A stretch of 40,370 bases of DNA, taken from positions 145,641-186,010 of the forward strand of contig JAAOIH010000001.1 of the NCBI GenBank assembly GCA_015163875.1, given 5' to 3'. Both the position numbers and the translations under genes were made by a program. Every line of letters starts with the position of its first letter. Within the stretch, counting starts at the first letter, position 1. The stretch is from Bdellovibrionales bacterium. Its GTDB lineage: Bacteria > Bdellovibrionota > Bdellovibrionia > Bdellovibrionales > UBA1609. The notes below the pieces were generated by a model. It was not told where the DNA came from, did not search any database, and saw only the letters and a program-made list of their open reading frames with translations. This document shows, piece after piece, positions 3,670 to 32,057 of this stretch.

Positions 3670-3884
3670 ATCGACAAAACAAACTTTGCTTAGCCTTTGG
3701 TTAAATTTTGCGCCTTTTTAACGCTTAGCACTATATTAAAGGCTTTATCTTAAAAAGTACAATATCAAGCTAATTTTTGTAAAATATAGCCTATTTTGAG
3801 CTGATTTATGCTTATATTAGCAGTTTAAGAATATTAATTGGCTTATTTTTCATTATTTTAGCAATTTTAGTCGATAGATTTAAT

Positions 3885-4745
3885 ATGAAAAGTCTTTTAA
3901 ATGCCAAAGGACAGGCCACAGTAGAGGCAGTTTTAATGCTGATTTTGGGCGTATCCATGGTGTTAGGCCTTGTGGCAGGCCTTAATACATCTTTTAAAGT
4001 ATTTACAGAAAACTATTTTGGAAGTTATTTTTTATGCTTAATTAAAAACGGTGAACTTCCAACATTAAAATATGTTTATGTTAAAGGAGTAGACCCTGAT
4101 AACTGTAGTACAAAACACAAGGCATTTACACTCACTGAAGGTTGGGCCAAAAAATCTATTGGAGGGGGATCAGGCTCTGGTAGCTCTGGATCAAAAAATA
4201 AATCTTCTGCTAAAAAAAAATCAGCTTCATCTAAACATCGAATAGCTAGTAGTAAATCTGGATTTAATAATTTTTCAAAAAAAAGATTTAAATCAAGGAG
4301 AGGAATAAGCAAAGGCTCAGGCGGGGCGGGGTCTTCTGGAAAAAATAAAAAAGATAAAGACGGAGACGGAATCTCTGGAGGAGCAAGCGTTGGCACTTAT
4401 GGAAAATTATCTAACGGAAATGACGGCGGCGTAAGAATTATAAGAATTAAACGAAGGTCATCTGGGCGTGGCAAAGGATCTCATAATTTGTACAAAGACC
4501 CAGGGGATAAAAAAATTAAAACAAGTGGCTCTATAAATAAGTCTTCTGAAGCAGGATATGGACAAAAAAATAAAACTCGTTTAAAAATAGACAGAACGGT
4601 TGCAAAAACAAAAATAAAGAAAGAAGAGGGCTTTAAATTTAATTTTTCAACCGTTATGAGATTTTTAATTATTGTGTCCTTGATAATTGTAATTATTATT
4701 GTTATCGGTGGACAGCTATTAAGTATTAGTAAATCTTTTGATTAG
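3885..4745 (+). CDS. prepilin/TadE-like membrane protein with long basic Ser/Gly/Lys linker and second C-terminal membrane segment
   Basis: 286 residues. The N-terminus 'MKSLLNAKGQATVEAVLM', followed by ~20 hydrophobic residues, matches a class III (type IV prepilin/TadE/Flp-like) signal: short basic leader, G-Q, Glu at the fifth position after the Gly, then a hydrophobic helix. After a short Cys-containing part (~45-85), residues ~95-245 are low-complexity Gly/Ser/Lys/Arg. Residues ~257-281 form a strong second transmembrane helix ('LIIVSLIIVIIIVIGG'). Pilins do not normally end in a membrane helix, so this is probably an envelope tether or assembly factor rather than a filament subunit (inference). 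There is no strong ribosome binding site. nadE follows 26 bp downstream. The pilus operon near 18-23 kb could supply a processing context, but no prepilin peptidase is in the window. Confidence 0.6.
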   Translation: MKSLLNAKGQATVEAVLMLILGVSMVLGLVAGLNTSFKVFTENYFGSYFLCLIKNGELPTLKYVYVKGVDPDNCSTKHKAFTLTEGWAKKSIGGGSGSGSSGSKNKSSAKKKSASSKHRIASSKSGFNNFSKKRFKSRRGISKGSGGAGSSGKNKKDKDGDGISGGASVGTYGKLSNGNDGGVRIIRIKRRSSGRGKGSHNLYKDPGDKKIKTSGSINKSSEAGYGQKNKTRLKIDRTVAKTKIKKEEGFKFNFSTVMRFLIIVSLIIVIIIVIGGQLLSISKSFD

Positions 4746-4771: not shown

Positions 4772-6493
4772 ATGAAAATTGCATTAATTCAATTTAAATC
4801 TGCATTGGCAGAACCTATAAAAAATGCAAAAAGGCATTTGGAATTTATTTTAAAAGCCAAAGACCAAGGGGCTGATTTAATTGTGTTTCCAGAGATGTCT
4901 TTATTTTCGTATCCTTTATATGATTTGCCAGAAGATAAAAATATTATTACAGAGCAAAATTTAGCTTTAGATTTTATTCTTAAAAATTTACCAGACTCTG
5001 TATCAGTATTAGTTGGAGGCTTGCTGCAAAATACAGAAAAAGGAAAAAGTTTTTTTAACTCCGCATTTCTTTTGTCAAAATCAGAAAAAATAAAAATTTT
5101 TTCTAAAAAATTAATTCCAAATTATGACATCTTTGACGAGCACAGATTTATTCAGCCATCAGATAAAAATTTTGATAACTCTGTATTTAGTATTAAATCT
5201 AAAAGTTTTTTATTACATATTTGTGAAGACTCATGGTTTGGGATAGACAGTTTATCAAATCGACACTTGCATTATGTTTCTGAAGATTTTTTTAAAGCAA
5301 AAGGCAATGTTGATTATGTTATAAACATGAGCGCCTCTCCATTTTTTCAAGGAAAAAAAAATAACAGATTAAATATGGCAAAAAATTTAACATCTAATTT
5401 TGATGCACATTTATTATATGTAAACTTAGTAGGCGCCAGTGATGAGGTTATTTTTGACGGTCGTAGTTTTGTATATTCAAAAAACAATAAATTATTATCA
5501 GAGGCAAAAGCATTTAAAGAAGACATATTAATTGTAGACACCGAAAGTAAAGATTTAAACAGCGAAGTCAGCGGCGAAACAAACAGCAAAGTCATCTTAA
5601 AAGATTCACACCTAAACATTACACGCAAGGCCTTATGTTTTGGATTATCTGAATTTATTAAACAATCAGGATTTAAAAAAATACATATTGGTTTAAGTGG
5701 AGGCGTAGACTCAGCAGTTATTGCCTGCCTTGCAACAGAGGCCTTGGGTAGTAAAAATGTACAGGCATTAAGTTTGCCATCTCAATTTAGCTCACAATTA
5801 AGTTTTGATTTAGCCTCAGAGCAGGCAAAATTATTAAATATTTCTTTAAAAAATATATCTATACAAAAAATGTTTCAAACTTGTAAACAAGAAATAGATT
5901 TAGAATTAAATATATCAAGCCAATCTGTTATTCACGAAAATATTCAAGCCAGATTAAGAAGTTTAGTTTTAATGTCTTACTCTCAAAAAGAAAAAAGTTT
6001 ACTATTAAACACAAGCAATAAAAGTGAAATAGCAGTAGGATATTCAACTTTGTATGGCGATTTGTCTGGAGCAATTTGCCCAATAGGGGATTTATTAAAA
6101 ACAGAAGTATATGCCTTGGCTGAATATTATTGTAAAACAGGCAAGATTTCACAAAGTATTATAGACAGGCCTCCAACGGCAGAGTTAAAAAAAGATCAAC
6201 TAGACAAAGATAGTTTGCCAAATTACGAAATTTTAGATTTTATAATTATAAAAATTTTAAATATAAAAAATAGCATGATTTTAGACGAAAAATTTAACCC
6301 ATCTTTTGGTGATTATATTAAAAATATTTATACAAAAAGTGAGCTAGAATCTGTTGAAAAATTTTGTAAAACTAAAATTCTTGAAAGTGAGTTTAAAAGA
6401 TTTCAGGCTCCTCCAATTTTAAAAGTATCTATAAAATCTTTTGGTCAAGGGCGAAAAATGCCAGTAGCAAATTATAATTTACAAATCAAATAA
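4772..6493 (+). CDS. nadE: glutamine-dependent NAD+ synthetase
   Basis: 573 residues with two domains. The N-terminal nitrilase-like glutaminase (~1-270) shows the Glu-Lys-Cys triad: E41 in 'VFPEMSLF', K113 in 'SKKLIPNYD' and C151 in 'LLHICEDSW'. The C-terminal synthetase domain (~285-560) has the ATP-pyrophosphatase P-loop 'LSGGVDSAV' (~308-316) and 'NTSNKSE'. The enzyme adenylates nicotinic acid adenine dinucleotide and amidates it with ammonia from glutamine, the last step of NAD+ synthesis. The length is normal for the two-domain form. Its last 15 bp overlap the end of the convergent exonuclease gene. Confidence 0.95.
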   Translation: MKIALIQFKSALAEPIKNAKRHLEFILKAKDQGADLIVFPEMSLFSYPLYDLPEDKNIITEQNLALDFILKNLPDSVSVLVGGLLQNTEKGKSFFNSAFLLSKSEKIKIFSKKLIPNYDIFDEHRFIQPSDKNFDNSVFSIKSKSFLLHICEDSWFGIDSLSNRHLHYVSEDFFKAKGNVDYVINMSASPFFQGKKNNRLNMAKNLTSNFDAHLLYVNLVGASDEVIFDGRSFVYSKNNKLLSEAKAFKEDILIVDTESKDLNSEVSGETNSKVILKDSHLNITRKALCFGLSEFIKQSGFKKIHIGLSGGVDSAVIACLATEALGSKNVQALSLPSQFSSQLSFDLASEQAKLLNISLKNISIQKMFQTCKQEIDLELNISSQSVIHENIQARLRSLVLMSYSQKEKSLLLNTSNKSEIAVGYSTLYGDLSGAICPIGDLLKTEVYALAEYYCKTGKISQSIIDRPPTAELKKDQLDKDSLPNYEILDFIIIKILNIKNSMILDEKFNPSFGDYIKNIYTKSELESVEKFCKTKILESEFKRFQAPPILKVSIKSFGQGRKMPVANYNLQIK

Positions 6494-26492: not shown

Positions 26493-27920
26493 ATGAACTT
26501 TAAATTATTTTATAACATTTCTGAACTATTAAGCTTAAAAAAAGTAGCTGATAAACATGGGCGCAATATTACAGAGTCTGATTTTACTATTATAAAAAAA
26601 GCTGCAATTATTTCTTACAAAGGTAATATTGTTTGGGTTGGAAAATACAAAACAATTAACCAAAGTTTAATAAAACAATTAATTAAAACTTATAAAATTA
26701 CACAAACTTTAAAAAAATATTCATTAAATGACTCTTTTGTTATGCCATCTTTTGTAGAATGTCATACACATTTATTATTTGGAGGTAACAGAACTTCTGA
26801 ATTTAATTTAAGACAAAAAGGAGTTTCTTATTCTAAAATTGCAAGTCAAGGTGGTGGAATTTTATCAACAGTAAAAGAAACAAGAAAGCTTTCGTTAACA
26901 GAACTTAAAAAATTAGCCCAACAAAGATCAAAAGATTTTTTATCACAAGGTGTAACCAGCTTAGAGATAAAAAGTGGTTACGGATTAAATTTATCTAGCG
27001 AAATAAAAATGCTACAAGCAATTAAGTCTATTAAAAATTTAAATGTTATTTCAACTTTTTTAGCACTGCACACTTTGCCAAAAGAATTTTTATCTAAAGA
27101 GCAATATTTTAACTTTGTAATAAATAAAATATTACCAGTGGCTGTAAAAAAACAATTAATAAATAGAGTAGATATTTTTGTAGAAAGCATGGCATTTAAT
27201 AAAAAACACATGACAAAATTATTTAAAGCAGCCGATGCTTATAATTTAAATTTAAGTGTTCACTCTGATCAATTAAGCAAACAGGGTTCTTCTTGTTTGG
27301 CAGCAAAACTTGGTGCAAGTTCTGTAGACCATGTTAATTTTGTTACTAATTCAGAAATTAAATATTTATCTAAAGCTAATGTTAGTAATGTTTTTTTGCC
27401 AGGTGCAGATTTTTATTTAAAAATGAAATATCCACAAGCTCGTAAATTTTTAGACTCAGGCGCAAGGGTAGCACTAGCAACAGATTATAATCCAGGCACT
27501 TGCCCATGTAATAATATTGAATTTATTGGCTTACTTGCAAGATTAGAAATGAACATGAACATACAAGAGGTAATTACAGCCTACACAGTTTCGGCGGCCC
27601 ACGCCTTAAATATACAAAATAAAGTAGGCTCTTTAGAAGTCGGAAAGCAGGCAGACTTTATAAGCTTAAATAAATCTTACGATCAATTATTTTATTCAAA
27701 TACACATAACAATTCGCCAATAAAATCAGTTTACAGATTGGGAGCTTTGGTTGCATCTAAAGGGCAGGTAGTAGTAGAGTATGCTTTGTTAATGGTTTTG
27801 TCTGTAGCAATAGCAATATTATTAGTTGATAAAACTATAAGTAGAAACCCTGACAATCAAGGTTTTATTGTAAAAAAATGGCAAAACATTTTAGAAGTTA
27901 TCGGAAAGGATGACCAATAA
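26493..27920 (+). CDS. hutI: imidazolonepropionase fused to a prepilin-like hydrophobic tail
   Basis: 475 residues. Residues ~1-422 are imidazolonepropionase: metal-binding H91 and H93 in 'VECHTHLLFGGNR', 'LEIKSGYGLNLSSEIKML', 'SVHSDQLSKQG', 'SVDHVNFV', 'ALATDYNPGTCP' and 'VGSLEVGKQADF'. It opens the imidazolone ring to give formiminoglutamate. Normal family members end near 'GALVASKGQVV' (~405-425 residues). Here the frame continues 50 residues: 'KGQVVVEYALLMVLSVAIA' (starting at K423) then a polar tail to Q475. The extension looks like a class III/TadE/Flp prepilin signal and helix. No strong internal start (a TTG at 27747 has a Shine-Dalgarno only 2 bases away) supports a separate gene. 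The stop overlaps the start of the MFS gene. Confidence 0.9.
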   Translation: MNFKLFYNISELLSLKKVADKHGRNITESDFTIIKKAAIISYKGNIVWVGKYKTINQSLIKQLIKTYKITQTLKKYSLNDSFVMPSFVECHTHLLFGGNRTSEFNLRQKGVSYSKIASQGGGILSTVKETRKLSLTELKKLAQQRSKDFLSQGVTSLEIKSGYGLNLSSEIKMLQAIKSIKNLNVISTFLALHTLPKEFLSKEQYFNFVINKILPVAVKKQLINRVDIFVESMAFNKKHMTKLFKAADAYNLNLSVHSDQLSKQGSSCLAAKLGASSVDHVNFVTNSEIKYLSKANVSNVFLPGADFYLKMKYPQARKFLDSGARVALATDYNPGTCPCNNIEFIGLLARLEMNMNIQEVITAYTVSAAHALNIQNKVGSLEVGKQADFISLNKSYDQLFYSNTHNNSPIKSVYRLGALVASKGQVVVEYALLMVLSVAIAILLVDKTISRNPDNQGFIVKKWQNILEVIGKDDQ

Positions 27921-29148
27921 TAATATGCGAGATATAAAAAAAAACTTAAGCATTGTTTTTTTAATTGTACTAATTGATGTAATTGGCTTTGGTATTATTA
28001 TTCCGCTAACACCATACCTTGTAAGCTCTTTAGGTAAAGATGCTTTTTCAATCGGCTTGTTAATGGCAATTTATCCTTTTATGCAATTTATTTTTGCACC
28101 AGTGTGGGGAAGGCTTAGTGACAAATACGGCAGAAGACCTTTTTTATTATTAAGTTTATTTGGTTCTGTTTTAGCCCATACTTTATTTGCAGTTTCAACA
28201 ACTTATACTTTTTTATTTATAGCGCGAGCACTTGCTGGATTTTTTGGAGCAAGTATTTCGTCAGCAATGGCATATATTGCAGATATTTCTGACGCAAAAG
28301 ACAGAACAAAAAGAATGGGCTTTATTGGCGCAGCATTTGGATTAGGATTTGTATTAGGGCCAGCTTTGGGAGGGGGTTTTGGAGTTTTAGGACAAAGTCT
28401 TGGCAGCACTCCTCCATTTGGACAACAATTTGCGGCGTTAATGGCAGGTGTAATTTGTTTATTTAATTTTATTTTTGCATTTTTCTTTTTAGAAGAAAGT
28501 TTAGTAAATTTAAAAAAAGAAGAAAAATTTACAATTAAAGATTTGTTTCGTAATACTAAATTTTTAACAATTATAGAATCTTTAAAATTACCAACCATAG
28601 GAAAACTTTTATTTATAGGCTGGATGTTTTCTTTAGCAATGGTTCATATGGAGGTTTCTTTATTTTTATTAATGAAAGAAAGATTTCACTGGAGTTTGCT
28701 TCAATCAAGCATGGGTTTTGCGTACATAGGTTTAATTATGGTAATTTCTCAGGGAGGTTTAATAAAAATTTTAGTTCCAATTTTTGGCGAATCTAAATTA
28801 TTATTTATTGGCTTAGTTTTTTCTGCTTTGTCGTTAGTAGGTATTGCATTTTCTTATTCATTAATTCCATTAGTAATTTCGATTACTATTTTAGGCTTTG
28901 CATATAGTTTTTTTAATCCAGCATTTAACGGAAGCTTAAGTTTATTAAGCAAACAATCAGAACAGGGAGAAAGATTAGGATTATCACAAAGCATGAGCTC
29001 GCTTGGTCGCATTGTAGGCTCTGTACTTGCTGGCTGGTTGTATGCAAATTACGGAATGGAAAGTCCTTTTTTAAGTGGTGCTTTTTATATTTTAATTGCT
29101 ATATTTATTTATAAAAAAATTCATCTACATTTGCCAGGAAAAAAATAA
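27910..29148 (+). CDS. MFS transporter, TetA/drug:H+ antiporter-like
   Basis: 412 residues with about 12 membrane helices. Motif A, 'GRLSDKYGRRPFLL', is in loop 2-3, and the 'GLGFVLGPALGG' pattern of helix 5 (motif C, typical of antiporters) is present. These suggest efflux of a small molecule in exchange for protons. Because it lies between hutI and valS, a metabolite role is also possible, but the substrate cannot be read. The ATG at 27910 overlaps hutI by 11 bp and has GGAAAGG directly abutting it. An in-frame ATG at 27925 is a reasonable alternative. Confidence 0.88.
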   Translation: MTNNNMRDIKKNLSIVFLIVLIDVIGFGIIIPLTPYLVSSLGKDAFSIGLLMAIYPFMQFIFAPVWGRLSDKYGRRPFLLLSLFGSVLAHTLFAVSTTYTFLFIARALAGFFGASISSAMAYIADISDAKDRTKRMGFIGAAFGLGFVLGPALGGGFGVLGQSLGSTPPFGQQFAALMAGVICLFNFIFAFFFLEESLVNLKKEEKFTIKDLFRNTKFLTIIESLKLPTIGKLLFIGWMFSLAMVHMEVSLFLLMKERFHWSLLQSSMGFAYIGLIMVISQGGLIKILVPIFGESKLLFIGLVFSALSLVGIAFSYSLIPLVISITILGFAYSFFNPAFNGSLSLLSKQSEQGERLGLSQSMSSLGRIVGSVLAGWLYANYGMESPFLSGAFYILIAIFIYKKIHLHLPGKK

Positions 29149-32057
29149 TGAAAACTTTGAAAGATCGCTATCAACCAGAAAAAGTAGAATCAAATATTTA
29201 TAAAAAATGGATAGATGCAGATTGCTTTAAAGCAGAAGAAAAATCTAAAAAACCACCATTTAGTATTATTTTACCACCTCCAAATGTAACAGGGTTTTTA
29301 CACTTAGGTCATGCCCTTGATCAAAGTATTCAAGATATTTTTGTTAGGTGGAAAAGAATGCAGGGTTATAATGTTTTATGGCTTCCGGCTACAGATCACG
29401 CAGGCATTGCAACACAAGCTGTTGTAGAAAAAGAATTAAATAAAAAAGGAATTACAAAACAATCATTAGGAAAAGAAAATTTTTTAAAAGAAGTGTGGAA
29501 GTGGAAGGAGCAATACGGTCATAGAATTATTGATCAAATGAAGTCACTTGGGCACTCTTGTGATTGGGGAAGATTAAAATTTACTTTAGATCAAGATGTT
29601 TCAAGAGCTGTTAAAAAAGTATTTGTAAAATTATATGACAAAGGTTTAATTTACAAAGGTTTGCGATTAGTAAACTGGAGCACAAAACTAGAATCCGCTG
29701 TTTCTGATTTAGAGGTGGAGCACAAAAATGTTTCTTCTTTTTTATGGTATATTAAATATAATTTTGTAGACGAAAAATTAACAACAAATGATAATAAAAA
29801 TTATTTAGTCGTAGCAACAACCAGACCAGAAACTTTATTAGGCGACACGGCAGTAGCCGTTCATCCAAAAGATGAAAGATATAAAAATTTAATTGGAAAA
29901 AAAATAAAAGTTCCATTTGTAAATCGTCAAATTATTATTATTTCAGACCCAGGAGTAGATAAAGATTTTGGAACAGGCGCTGTAAAGTTAACACCTGCTC
30001 ATGATTTTAATGATTACGAAATGGCAAAAAAACATAATTTAGAATTTATTAATATTTTAAATCAAAATGGAATTTTAAATAAAAACGCCGGGCCATATGA
30101 AGGTTTAAATGTTTTAAAGGCAAGAGCAAAACTTTTAGAAGACTTAAAAGAAAAAAATCTTTTTATAAAAGAAGAGCCTCATAAACATTCTGTCGGGCAT
30201 TGCTCTAGGTCGGGTTGTGTTATAGAGCCATTTTTATCTAAACAGTGGTTTTTAAAAACAAAAGAATTATCCGTACAAGCTAGGCGTGCAGTTGAAACCG
30301 AGACAACAAAGTTTGAACCAGAGTCGTGGTCTAAAACTTATTTACATTGGTTAGAAATTATTCAAGATTGGTGCATTTCAAGACAGTTATGGTGGGGGCA
30401 TCAAATTCCTGCATGGAATTGCATGGACTGTTTAAAGGTAACAGTTAGTGAGGGTGATTTAAAAAATTGCCAACACTGCAAAAGTTTAAACATACAAGCA
30501 GACCCAGATGTTTTAGACACATGGTTTAGCTCTGCACTTTGGCCATTTAGCACATTAGGTTGGCCAGAAGAAACAGAACTTCAAAAAACTTTTTATCCAA
30601 CAAGTTTATTGATAACAGGACATGACATAATATTTTTTTGGGTAGCAAGAATGATGATGATGGGATTAGAATTTAAAAAAGATGTTCCGTTTAGAACAGT
30701 ATTTGTCCACGGCTTAGTAAGAGATTCAAAGGGAATAAAAATGTCTAAATCTTTAGGCAACTCAATTGACCCTGTAGAATTAATAAAAAAATCTGGCGCC
30801 GATGCTTTAAGATTTACCTTGGCATCACAGGTAATGGCGGGGAAAGATTTAAAATTTTCACAAGAAAGATTTGAAGGTTATAGAAACTTTATGAACAAAA
30901 TTTGGAATGCTGCTAGGTTTTTAATTTCCTTTGAATCTGATAAATTAAATTTAAAAGAGACCTCCTCGCTGGCATCCCTTCGGGCTGAACGCTTGGAGGA
31001 CTCTTTTAAATTTAATTTATCAGATTCAAAGAGGTATGACAGTGGTGATTTAGATGCAGTTTCTTTTGTGAATTCTAATTTGTCAGATTCAAAAGAGGCC
31101 TCCGAGCGTTCAGCCCGCAGGGATGCCAGCGAGGCGGTCTCTTTTGAATCTGACAAATTAGAATTCATCAAAGAAAATAAAAATTATTTTTCTTCAAGGG
31201 ACATTTGGCTTATTTGTAAATTAAAAAATACTATTAAAGAGGTAGACAAAGCTCTTGAAAATTATCATATAGCAGAGGCAGCCGCTAGTGTTTATAATTT
31301 TTCTTGGCATTATTTTTGTGATTGGTATTTAGAAATGAGTAAAAATACTTTTTATAACAAGGATGGTAAAAATTTAAAAGAGGCCAGGGCTAGTTATTTT
31401 GTTGCAAAATATGTTTTTAAAAATATTTTAAAACTTATGCACCCATTTACTCCTTTTATTACCGAAGAACTGTTTTCTTATTTTAAGGACACTGGTGATA
31501 AAGATTTTATTATGTTTGAAAGCTTTCCTAGTTTAAAATCTGAAAAACATTTACTTAGCCTTTGTGATGAAAGCTTAGAGGAAGAAATTGATTTTATGCA
31601 AATGGTTGTTACGGCTGTGCGAAATATTAGAGGAGAAAACAGAGTTAAGGCTTCAGAAAAAATTATGTTGTATCTGTCGCCCAAAGACGATTACGGGCAA
31701 AAAGTTTTGTCTAAGTATGTTGATTTAATTTGTAATTTGGCAGGAGTAAAAGAATGTTTTGTTAAGGCCCCAGAGTCTTTAGAAAAATCGGCAGTTACTC
31801 CAGTTAGTTTTAAAAACACTTCTGTAAATGTTATTGTTCCGCTAAAGGGGCTTGTTGATTTTTCTGAAGAGCTAAAAAGACTTACAAAACAAATAGATAA
31901 AATAAATTTAGAAATTAAATCTTTATCTTTAAGATTAAAAGATGAAAACTTTGTTAAAAATGCACCAAGCAAAGTTGTTGAAGAAAGTAAAAAATCTTTA
32001 AAGTCTATGAATGAGCAAATTAAAGTTTTAAAAGAAGGCGTTGAAAGATTTAGCTAA
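29148..32057 (+). CDS. valS: valyl-tRNA synthetase with in-frame palindromic-element insertion
   Basis: 969 residues, class I synthetase. The HIGH motif is 'FLHLGHALD' (H52-H55), the CP1 editing domain has 'TTRPETLLGDTAVAVHP', the KMSKS motif is K531-S535 ('GIKMSKSLGN'), the anticodon domain is ~680-850, and the C-terminal coiled coil is ~895-969. It charges tRNA-Val and edits Thr-tRNA. Residues ~595-673, between 'NAARFLIS' and 'YFSSRDIWLICKL', have no counterpart in the normal protein. They are encoded by two inverted palindromic DNA elements (30930-31030 and 31069-31167). The insertion keeps the frame and lies at the junction of catalytic and anticodon domains, where extra length is likely tolerated. 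The ATG overlaps the MFS stop by one base. Confidence 0.96.
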   Translation: MKTLKDRYQPEKVESNIYKKWIDADCFKAEEKSKKPPFSIILPPPNVTGFLHLGHALDQSIQDIFVRWKRMQGYNVLWLPATDHAGIATQAVVEKELNKKGITKQSLGKENFLKEVWKWKEQYGHRIIDQMKSLGHSCDWGRLKFTLDQDVSRAVKKVFVKLYDKGLIYKGLRLVNWSTKLESAVSDLEVEHKNVSSFLWYIKYNFVDEKLTTNDNKNYLVVATTRPETLLGDTAVAVHPKDERYKNLIGKKIKVPFVNRQIIIISDPGVDKDFGTGAVKLTPAHDFNDYEMAKKHNLEFINILNQNGILNKNAGPYEGLNVLKARAKLLEDLKEKNLFIKEEPHKHSVGHCSRSGCVIEPFLSKQWFLKTKELSVQARRAVETETTKFEPESWSKTYLHWLEIIQDWCISRQLWWGHQIPAWNCMDCLKVTVSEGDLKNCQHCKSLNIQADPDVLDTWFSSALWPFSTLGWPEETELQKTFYPTSLLITGHDIIFFWVARMMMMGLEFKKDVPFRTVFVHGLVRDSKGIKMSKSLGNSIDPVELIKKSGADALRFTLASQVMAGKDLKFSQERFEGYRNFMNKIWNAARFLISFESDKLNLKETSSLASLRAERLEDSFKFNLSDSKRYDSGDLDAVSFVNSNLSDSKEASERSARRDASEAVSFESDKLEFIKENKNYFSSRDIWLICKLKNTIKEVDKALENYHIAEAAASVYNFSWHYFCDWYLEMSKNTFYNKDGKNLKEARASYFVAKYVFKNILKLMHPFTPFITEELFSYFKDTGDKDFIMFESFPSLKSEKHLLSLCDESLEEEIDFMQMVVTAVRNIRGENRVKASEKIMLYLSPKDDYGQKVLSKYVDLICNLAGVKECFVKAPESLEKSAVTPVSFKNTSVNVIVPLKGLVDFSEELKRLTKQIDKINLEIKSLSLRLKDENFVKNAPSKVVEESKKSLKSMNEQIKVLKEGVERFS
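30930..31030. repeat. palindromic element A inside valS
   Basis: A perfect 30-bp inverted repeat: left arm 30930-30959 (begins TTTGAATCTGATAAAT, ends AAAAGAG), right arm 31001-31030. The arms enclose a 41-bp core (30960-31000) that is 26/41 G+C in otherwise ~30% G+C DNA, with CCTCC/GGAGG pairing just inside. It is open on both strands and read in the valS frame as 'FESDKLNLKE', then 'SLASLRAER', then 'FKFNLSDSK'. It resembles Rickettsia palindromic elements in behaviour; family identity is not established. Confidence 0.9.
31069..31167. repeat. palindromic element B inside valS, opposite orientation
   Basis: A perfect 29-bp inverted repeat: arms 31069-31097 and 31139-31167, with EcoRI-like GAATTC near the outer ends. 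Its 41-bp core (31098-31138) matches the reverse complement of the element A core at 37 of 41 positions. It is read in the valS frame as 'NSNLSDSKE', 'ASERSARRDASE', 'FESDKLEF'. It lies 38 bp after element A. The inner arm ends (AAAAGAG/CTCTTTT) are common to both elements, while the outer arms differ. Confidence 0.9.

Follow-up and report, generated by a model that had tools for sequence, protein, structure and literature searches.

A pilin-like protein with a second membrane helix occurs in nearly all Bdellovibrionia and is a candidate component of the Tad pilus machine

The open reading frame at positions 3885–4745 of the window (the whole 40,370-nucleotide stretch analysed) encodes a protein that starts like a Flp-type pilin, continues through a neck with two conserved cysteines and a long disordered linker, and ends in a second membrane helix. 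Flp-type pilins are a known kind of protein; the family is a new variant with a second anchor, of which no description was found in the available text of the literature searched. This family is probably an undescribed part of the pilus machine in relatives of Bdellovibrio. Judging from its sequence and gene neighbourhood, processing by a prepilin peptidase is highly likely and a role in the Tad machine is likely, while the most specific version as a whole, an accessory pseudopilin of the Tad (type IVb, Kil-like) pilus anchored at the filament base, has in our view about an even chance of being right. Tad/Flp pilins are reported to be needed for Bdellovibrio predation (PMC5430801), and this family, which combines a pilin start with a second anchor and is present in nearly the whole class, is a candidate for a missing part of the predation pilus machine.

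Protein architecture and predicted topology

The gene and the parts of its product are as follows:

3885..4745, + strand: two-helix pilin-like protein, 286 aa, ATG start, stop codon included, homologues found
3885..3911, + strand: leader MKSLLNAKG, residues 1–9, with putative cleavage predicted after Gly9
3927..3983, + strand: hydrophobic helix 1, residues 15–33, N-terminal half of the pilin-like helix (hydropathy, AlphaFold2)
4035..4106, + strand: neck from Cys51 to Cys74 with the conserved block YFGxYxxCLxxxGELP (alignment conservation)
4161..4625, + strand: disordered Ser/Gly/Lys-rich linker, residues ~93–247, predicted periplasmic (pLDDT <50, charge statistics)
4653..4709, + strand: hydrophobic helix 2, residues 257–275 (hydropathy; AlphaFold2 helix 254–285)
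4710..4742, + strand: tail GQLLSISKSFD (family GGQxLQISKSxE), predicted cytoplasmic (Q277 invariant, K283 in at least 90%, charge)

The preliminary description of this DNA had recognised the reading frame, a class III-type entry signal, a low-complexity Ser/Gly stretch and a terminal membrane helix, all of which were recovered by ORF analysis, hydropathy and AlphaFold2. The signal KGQATVEAVLM, of the class III/type IVb prepilin type, occupies residues 8–18, with the start pattern G9/Q10...E14 (the slash marks the predicted cut), and sliding hydropathy placed the best 19-residue window of helix 2 from residue 257, with a mean of 3.13. A C-terminal window of mean hydropathy of at least 2.09 was present in all 51 rows compared (50 relatives and the window protein). 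The AlphaFold2 model of the window protein, built from 25 sequences, showed helices at residues 8–33, 35–55 and 254–285 and a pLDDT below 50 over residues ~93–247. That of a relative (L111) showed a first helix unbroken from residue 15 to 62 and of higher confidence, with further helices at 76–80 and, around low confidence, at 203–231. As global confidence was low in both models (pTM 0.22), only the helices were taken from them. A Foldseek search of the AlphaFold model against the PDB gave no match.

Mean net charges over 49 sequences were +2.3 for the leader, −0.7 for the 15 residues after helix 1, −1.65 for the 15 before helix 2 and +0.5 for the tail, which was net positive in just 18 of the 49. 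By the positive-inside rule, these values fit an N-terminus inside, a linker outside and a C-terminus inside, although the signal from the tail is weak. The linker had also been described as highly basic, which holds for the window protein (net charge +32) but not for the family, as the 48 other sequences gave a median of +8 (range −16 to +26); the basic character is thus local.

Low-complexity stretches were also observed in other proteins. The valyl-tRNA synthetase gene valS (window positions 29148–32057) carries an inserted-looking low-complexity stretch with the repeated sequence SFESDKL on its flanks. At L004 and L005, poly-Ser was found in one protein and an Ala/Gly/Val-rich insertion in another, which we take from their sequences to be NuoG-like and DnaE-like, that is, low-complexity insertions in housekeeping proteins of this small genome.

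The N-terminus as a Flp-type pilin module

Profile–profile comparison with hhalign scored the family N-terminus at 97.3% against the Flp profile of Tad loci (E 2.3e-11, 44 columns), at 96.6% against a GQ..VE protein of ~85 aa from the same kind of locus and at 96.9% against flp4-type pilins, versus 0.6% for the control CpaB, an unrelated family with its own single N-terminal membrane helix. The N-terminus is therefore a Flp-type pilin module, and the prepilin-type start of the protein is well supported. As in Flp and type IVb pilins, a class III-type signal with Gly at −1 and Glu at +5 precedes the hydrophobic helix; the short single-helix form able to leave the membrane was not found, the protein having 286 residues and a second hydrophobic helix. 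Pfam matches among 42 members were weak: Flp1_like in six, TadE in four (best E 0.0013) and the class III signal in eight. The earlier view that this topology does not fit a filament subunit thus stands in part: the second anchor is unlike an ordinary extractable subunit, but the first ~50 residues form a normal Flp-type pilin helix, so that a place at the filament base is possible.

Conservation and distribution of the family

Matches to the family were found in 51 of the 58 relatives searched (own genome included), mostly at full length. Among the 51 homologues called, window protein included, 49 carried GQ...E, and the two others (L059 and L085) are cut by contig ends; the Gly-Gln-Glu motif is thus present in every homologue whose N-terminus is intact, which is more than chance. 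Of the 51 rows of this set (the window protein and ORFs from 50 relatives), the alignment kept 42 and left out nine. Residues G9, Q10, E14, C51, G56, P59 and Q277 were invariant in all 42 rows, C74 and K283 were each conserved in at least 90%, and both C51 and C74 were invariant in another comparison, the two cysteines of the homologues lying at about +42 and +60 from the Gly. Judged from these comparisons, the signal, the two cysteines and the second helix are the conserved design, of which the strong basic charge is no part.

On a wider scale, the family profile reached E<1e-20 in 120 of 129 genomes of the class (Bdellovibrionia), with weak, partial, split or no matches in the remaining nine. 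In the 182 genomes outside the class, drawn from the same phylum (289 genomes in total), no match was better than 5.0e-8 among those listed, and the full protein was not found among them in the other classes sampled. The matches listed outside the class covered the N-terminal ~50 positions, except one over the linker; being confined to that module, they can be taken as ordinary Flp-type pilins, and with no strong full-length match there the family looks specific to the class. A separate scan found 25 named relatives. All are MAGs, and their labels are Bdellovibrionales, Bdellovibrionia, Bdellovibrionaceae or similar, with one given just as Proteobacteria. The homologue of the laboratory strain B. 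bacteriovorus HD100, placed between the DUF2203/nadE genes and a TPR gene adjoining rimO, would by our guess have a locus tag near Bd3837, as Bd3834 is the DNA polymerase subunit gene next to it (PMC2797640); apart from this source, no Bdellovibrio paper on locus tags around Bd3837 was found.

Genomic context

The pilus-type processing path initially proposed depends on a prepilin peptidase, and the genome holds two A24 genes of this kind, one each on contigs C33 and C22. The first lies in a 263-aa open frame; the second, of 171–173 aa, belongs to the Tad locus on C22. This locus contains Flp, a trimmed Flp2-like ORF, TadV, an 85-aa pilin-like protein, CpaB, a secretin, a fused TadZ-TadA and TadB, together with TadF- and TadE-like ORFs that gave no Pfam match and were named by position and similarity among loci. 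The family gene lies on another contig, away from the Tad locus, with the following neighbour:

4772..6493, + strand: nadE (NAD synthase), conserved neighbour outside the proposed function, near the gene in 45 of 50 relatives

In 39 of the 50 relatives, the stretch around the family gene held two or more Tad genes, mostly on the opposite strand and with L066 as a weak case, and TadV was near the family gene in 37; the linkage to nadE (45/50) is thus tighter than that to Tad. Bdellovibrio genomes are described as lacking TadV (PMC5430801). At four loci (L037, L042, L062 and L078, group f8), the gene is flanked by a TPR gene and by DUF2203-nadE, and is not Tad-linked. Since gene order is inherited within one class, the Tad linkages are not independent events, and they support a Tad role without proving it. 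Nor does co-occurrence inform on dependence, as CpaB, present in 127 of 129 class genomes, and the family are both nearly universal.

Some features of the Tad loci were recorded on their own account. A trimmed Flp2-like ORF (MTTEL...), found at L034 16373–16576 and as 38 more ORFs, belongs to Tad loci also holding TadV; among the BALOs compared in PMC5430801, such an ORF is reported in Bdellovibrio only. TadZ (ParA-type) and TadA (T2SSE) form a single 766-aa protein (L034 9654–11954, on contig C22), and several relatives have ORFs resembling it in length and start. A YD/RHS-repeat protein adjoins TadB where the Tad operon ends (L034 7034–8749), and ORFs starting like it occupy the equivalent place in L036, L044, L046 and L047.

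Upstream promoter motif

The sequence CCGAT[AG], which we take to be the FliA-type −10 consensus, was found upstream of 27 of 47 family genes, against 4.9 ± 1.7 in shuffled sequences (40 shuffles, largest value 9), and upstream of 27 of 38 Flp genes. Counts before other genes were 7/45 for nadE, 7/39 for DUF2203, 4/40 for dnaQ and 3/38 for TadV, with an excess also before the TPR neighbour (14/30) and a smaller one before CpaB (10/34). The motif occurred on the other strand in 18 of the 47 family upstream regions, which fits a promoter region shared by divergent genes. A scan for two-box FliA promoters gave only a modest excess (32 of 49 at a score of at least 24, versus 36% of shuffles), the −10 alone being the clearer signal. 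Three of the four f8 copies lack CCGAT[AG], and the region upstream of the window gene holds no CCGAT motif, just the following candidate, with a poor −35:

3870..3877, + strand: GTCGATAG, possible FliA-type −10, weak; identical bases in the genus mate, no clear −35

In Bdellovibrio, the Tad operon is reported to be under FliA control (PMC5430801).

A second pilin module at the end of hutI

The pattern KGQ..VE occurs twice in the DNA of the window (positions 3906 and 27759) versus 0.01 expected, and the second occurrence belongs to this feature:

27747..27920, + strand: flp4-type pilin module closing the hutI ORF (internal TTG start at 27747, or fusion; homologues, gene layout of relatives)

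The two proteins had been described as unrelated carriers of the same signal. The shared pattern was confirmed, but not the lack of relation, since the HutI tail is of the flp4 type, the pilins that scored 96.9% against the family N-terminus. In the whole genome, GQ..VE occurred 11 times at the DNA level; read in frame, three were of the pilin type (the 286-aa ORF, the HutI tail and the 85-aa Tad-locus protein), and the other eight lay inside ordinary proteins or short frames.

The hutI ORF (26493–27920) ends in a 57-aa pilin module, homologues of which were found in 54 of 58 genomes. The whole ORF was used as query in 16 genomes, two in the genus and 14 outside. Of the latter, 13 had hutI, each with a separate pilin ORF that lies 0.5–1.5 kb downstream of it and on its strand; the two genus members have hutI and the pilin in a single frame, in which the bases TTGGTTGCATCTAA are identical. 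Translation from the internal TTG at 27747 would yield MVASKG/QVVVEY, with a leader as short as that of relative L092 (MNRKG/Q), although a G-rich ribosome site lies too close to this TTG for a convincing start. The separate flp4-type ORF of the relatives indicates that the HutI tail and the 286-aa protein are two displaced Tad-type pilins, which corrects the picture of the pilin genes in this reduced genome, where the second of them shares one frame with hutI.

In G042, the family gene is at 2.56 Mb, the flp4-type gene at 1.84 Mb and CpaB at 2.42 Mb. By its position there, the hutI-tail pilin matches flp4 of PMC5430801, the deletion of which is reported to have abolished predation. An identity of the family gene with the published flp3 was rejected on position, as the positions in G042, if it is the strain of that paper, fit a11q_1811 (flp4) and a11q_2366 (flp1) but not a11q_630 (flp3) (PMC5430801).

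Proposed role and alternatives

In the proposed mechanism, helix 1 would bring the protein into the inner membrane with its leader in the cytoplasm. Cleavage by a prepilin peptidase (TadV, or PilD if TadV is absent) would occur behind Gly9, so that the mature protein, like Flp pilins, would have Gln at +1 and Glu at +5. Its pilin-like helix could then join the assembly platform or the filament base, while helix 2 would keep the C-terminus in the membrane, so that the protein, unlike a normal subunit, would be unable to leave. The disordered stretch of ~150–200 residues, predicted to be periplasmic, may serve as a leash, with the two cysteines possibly stapling the neck, and the anchored pseudopilin would prime or hold the filament base. 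Against this reading count the linkage to nadE, tighter than that to Tad, the genomes of the phylum outside the class, whose Tad loci lack the full protein, the low confidence of the structure models with no PDB match, the missing CCGAT motif of the window gene and the weak charge of the tail. A bolder form, which we hold only tentatively and consider rather unlikely, is that of a pilus subunit on a leash: one end would be a processed pilin in the base of the predation pilus and the other would remain in the inner membrane, and the disordered tether would be stretched by any pull on the pilus. If so, the filament would be fixed to the cell, and tension, such as that from prey contact, could be reported through the conserved cytoplasmic tail.

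The protein might instead be an assembly or gating factor of the Tad machine, cut like a pilin but never part of the filament, its helices bracketing the TadB/TadC platform and its loop contacting CpaB or peptidoglycan. Such a role would share the Tad context, two hydrophobic helices would fix the protein in the membrane, and helix 2 with the tail (residues 245–286) is the part most conserved between the window protein and its genus mate (79% identity, versus 52% for the N-terminal module and 47% for the linker), as for a docking site. However, the N-terminus retains the complete pilin pattern including Glu at +5, which assembly factors are not known to need, and we regard this role as unlikely.

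A tip pilin, whose helix 2 would be carried out on the pilus and inserted into the prey membrane, seems improbable. We know of no precedent for the extraction of two helices, the acidic flank before helix 2 and the weakly basic tail are those of an ordinary inner-membrane helix, and the Tad loci already hold TadE/TadF-like ORFs, the usual tip candidates. The two conserved cysteines would nonetheless suit a tip protein, and the Kil/Tad pili of predators are reported to bear special tips (PMC12075869).

A service to the type IVa pilus or another PilD-dependent system, with the Tad neighbourhood as inherited gene order, would agree with the tighter linkage to nadE and with the missing Tad link in this genome and at the four f8 loci. 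The similarity of the N-terminal profile to Flp and the FliA-like motif common to the family and the Tad operon argue against it, and we hold it to be a poor candidate. Finally, a two-helix membrane protein that owes its motif to chance, without kinship to pili, is hardly credible: Pfam and NCBIfam scans found no family covering the window protein, and its linker and helix 2 have no pilin counterpart, but the motif is invariant across the class and the profile–profile score stands well above its control.

Comparison with known systems

In the available text of the respective papers, CpaL and KilN are Tad minor pilins placed at the tip (PMC12607857, PMC12075869), a waiting position at the base ahead of assembly is proposed for Tad minor pilins (PMC13170226), and TadG is hypothesised to be a pilus anchor (PMC4858521); no second membrane helix in a Tad minor pilin is described in those portions.

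Among individual proteins, TadE-like pseudopilins (PF07811) resemble the family through the weak matches in four of the 42 members; the window protein had none in the Pfam scan, and the loci carry TadE-like ORFs of their own. The modular minor pilin TadG/CpaL (PMC12607857) is likewise a long protein that starts like a pilin and has a prepilin peptidase site, but the family protein has no vWA match in the Pfam and NCBIfam scans (the C-terminal domain of TadG/CpaL) and no predicted folded C-terminal domain, and ends in a membrane helix. The Kil minor and adapter pilins KilK, KilO and KilL-N, of the Tad-like pilus of predators, share the pilin-type start; KilO, a Flp protein, has 59 aa, KilK is said to resemble it, and no second helix is reported in the available text (PMC12075869). 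The Flp/type IVb pilins (Flp1_like PF16982, Flp_Fap PF04964; flp1–flp4 of Bdellovibrio, PMC5430801) have, like the family, a Gly/Gln...Glu start followed by one hydrophobic helix. Compared with the Flp-type ORFs of these loci, of ~57–110 aa, the family adds the Cys-Cys neck, the disordered linker and the second membrane helix.
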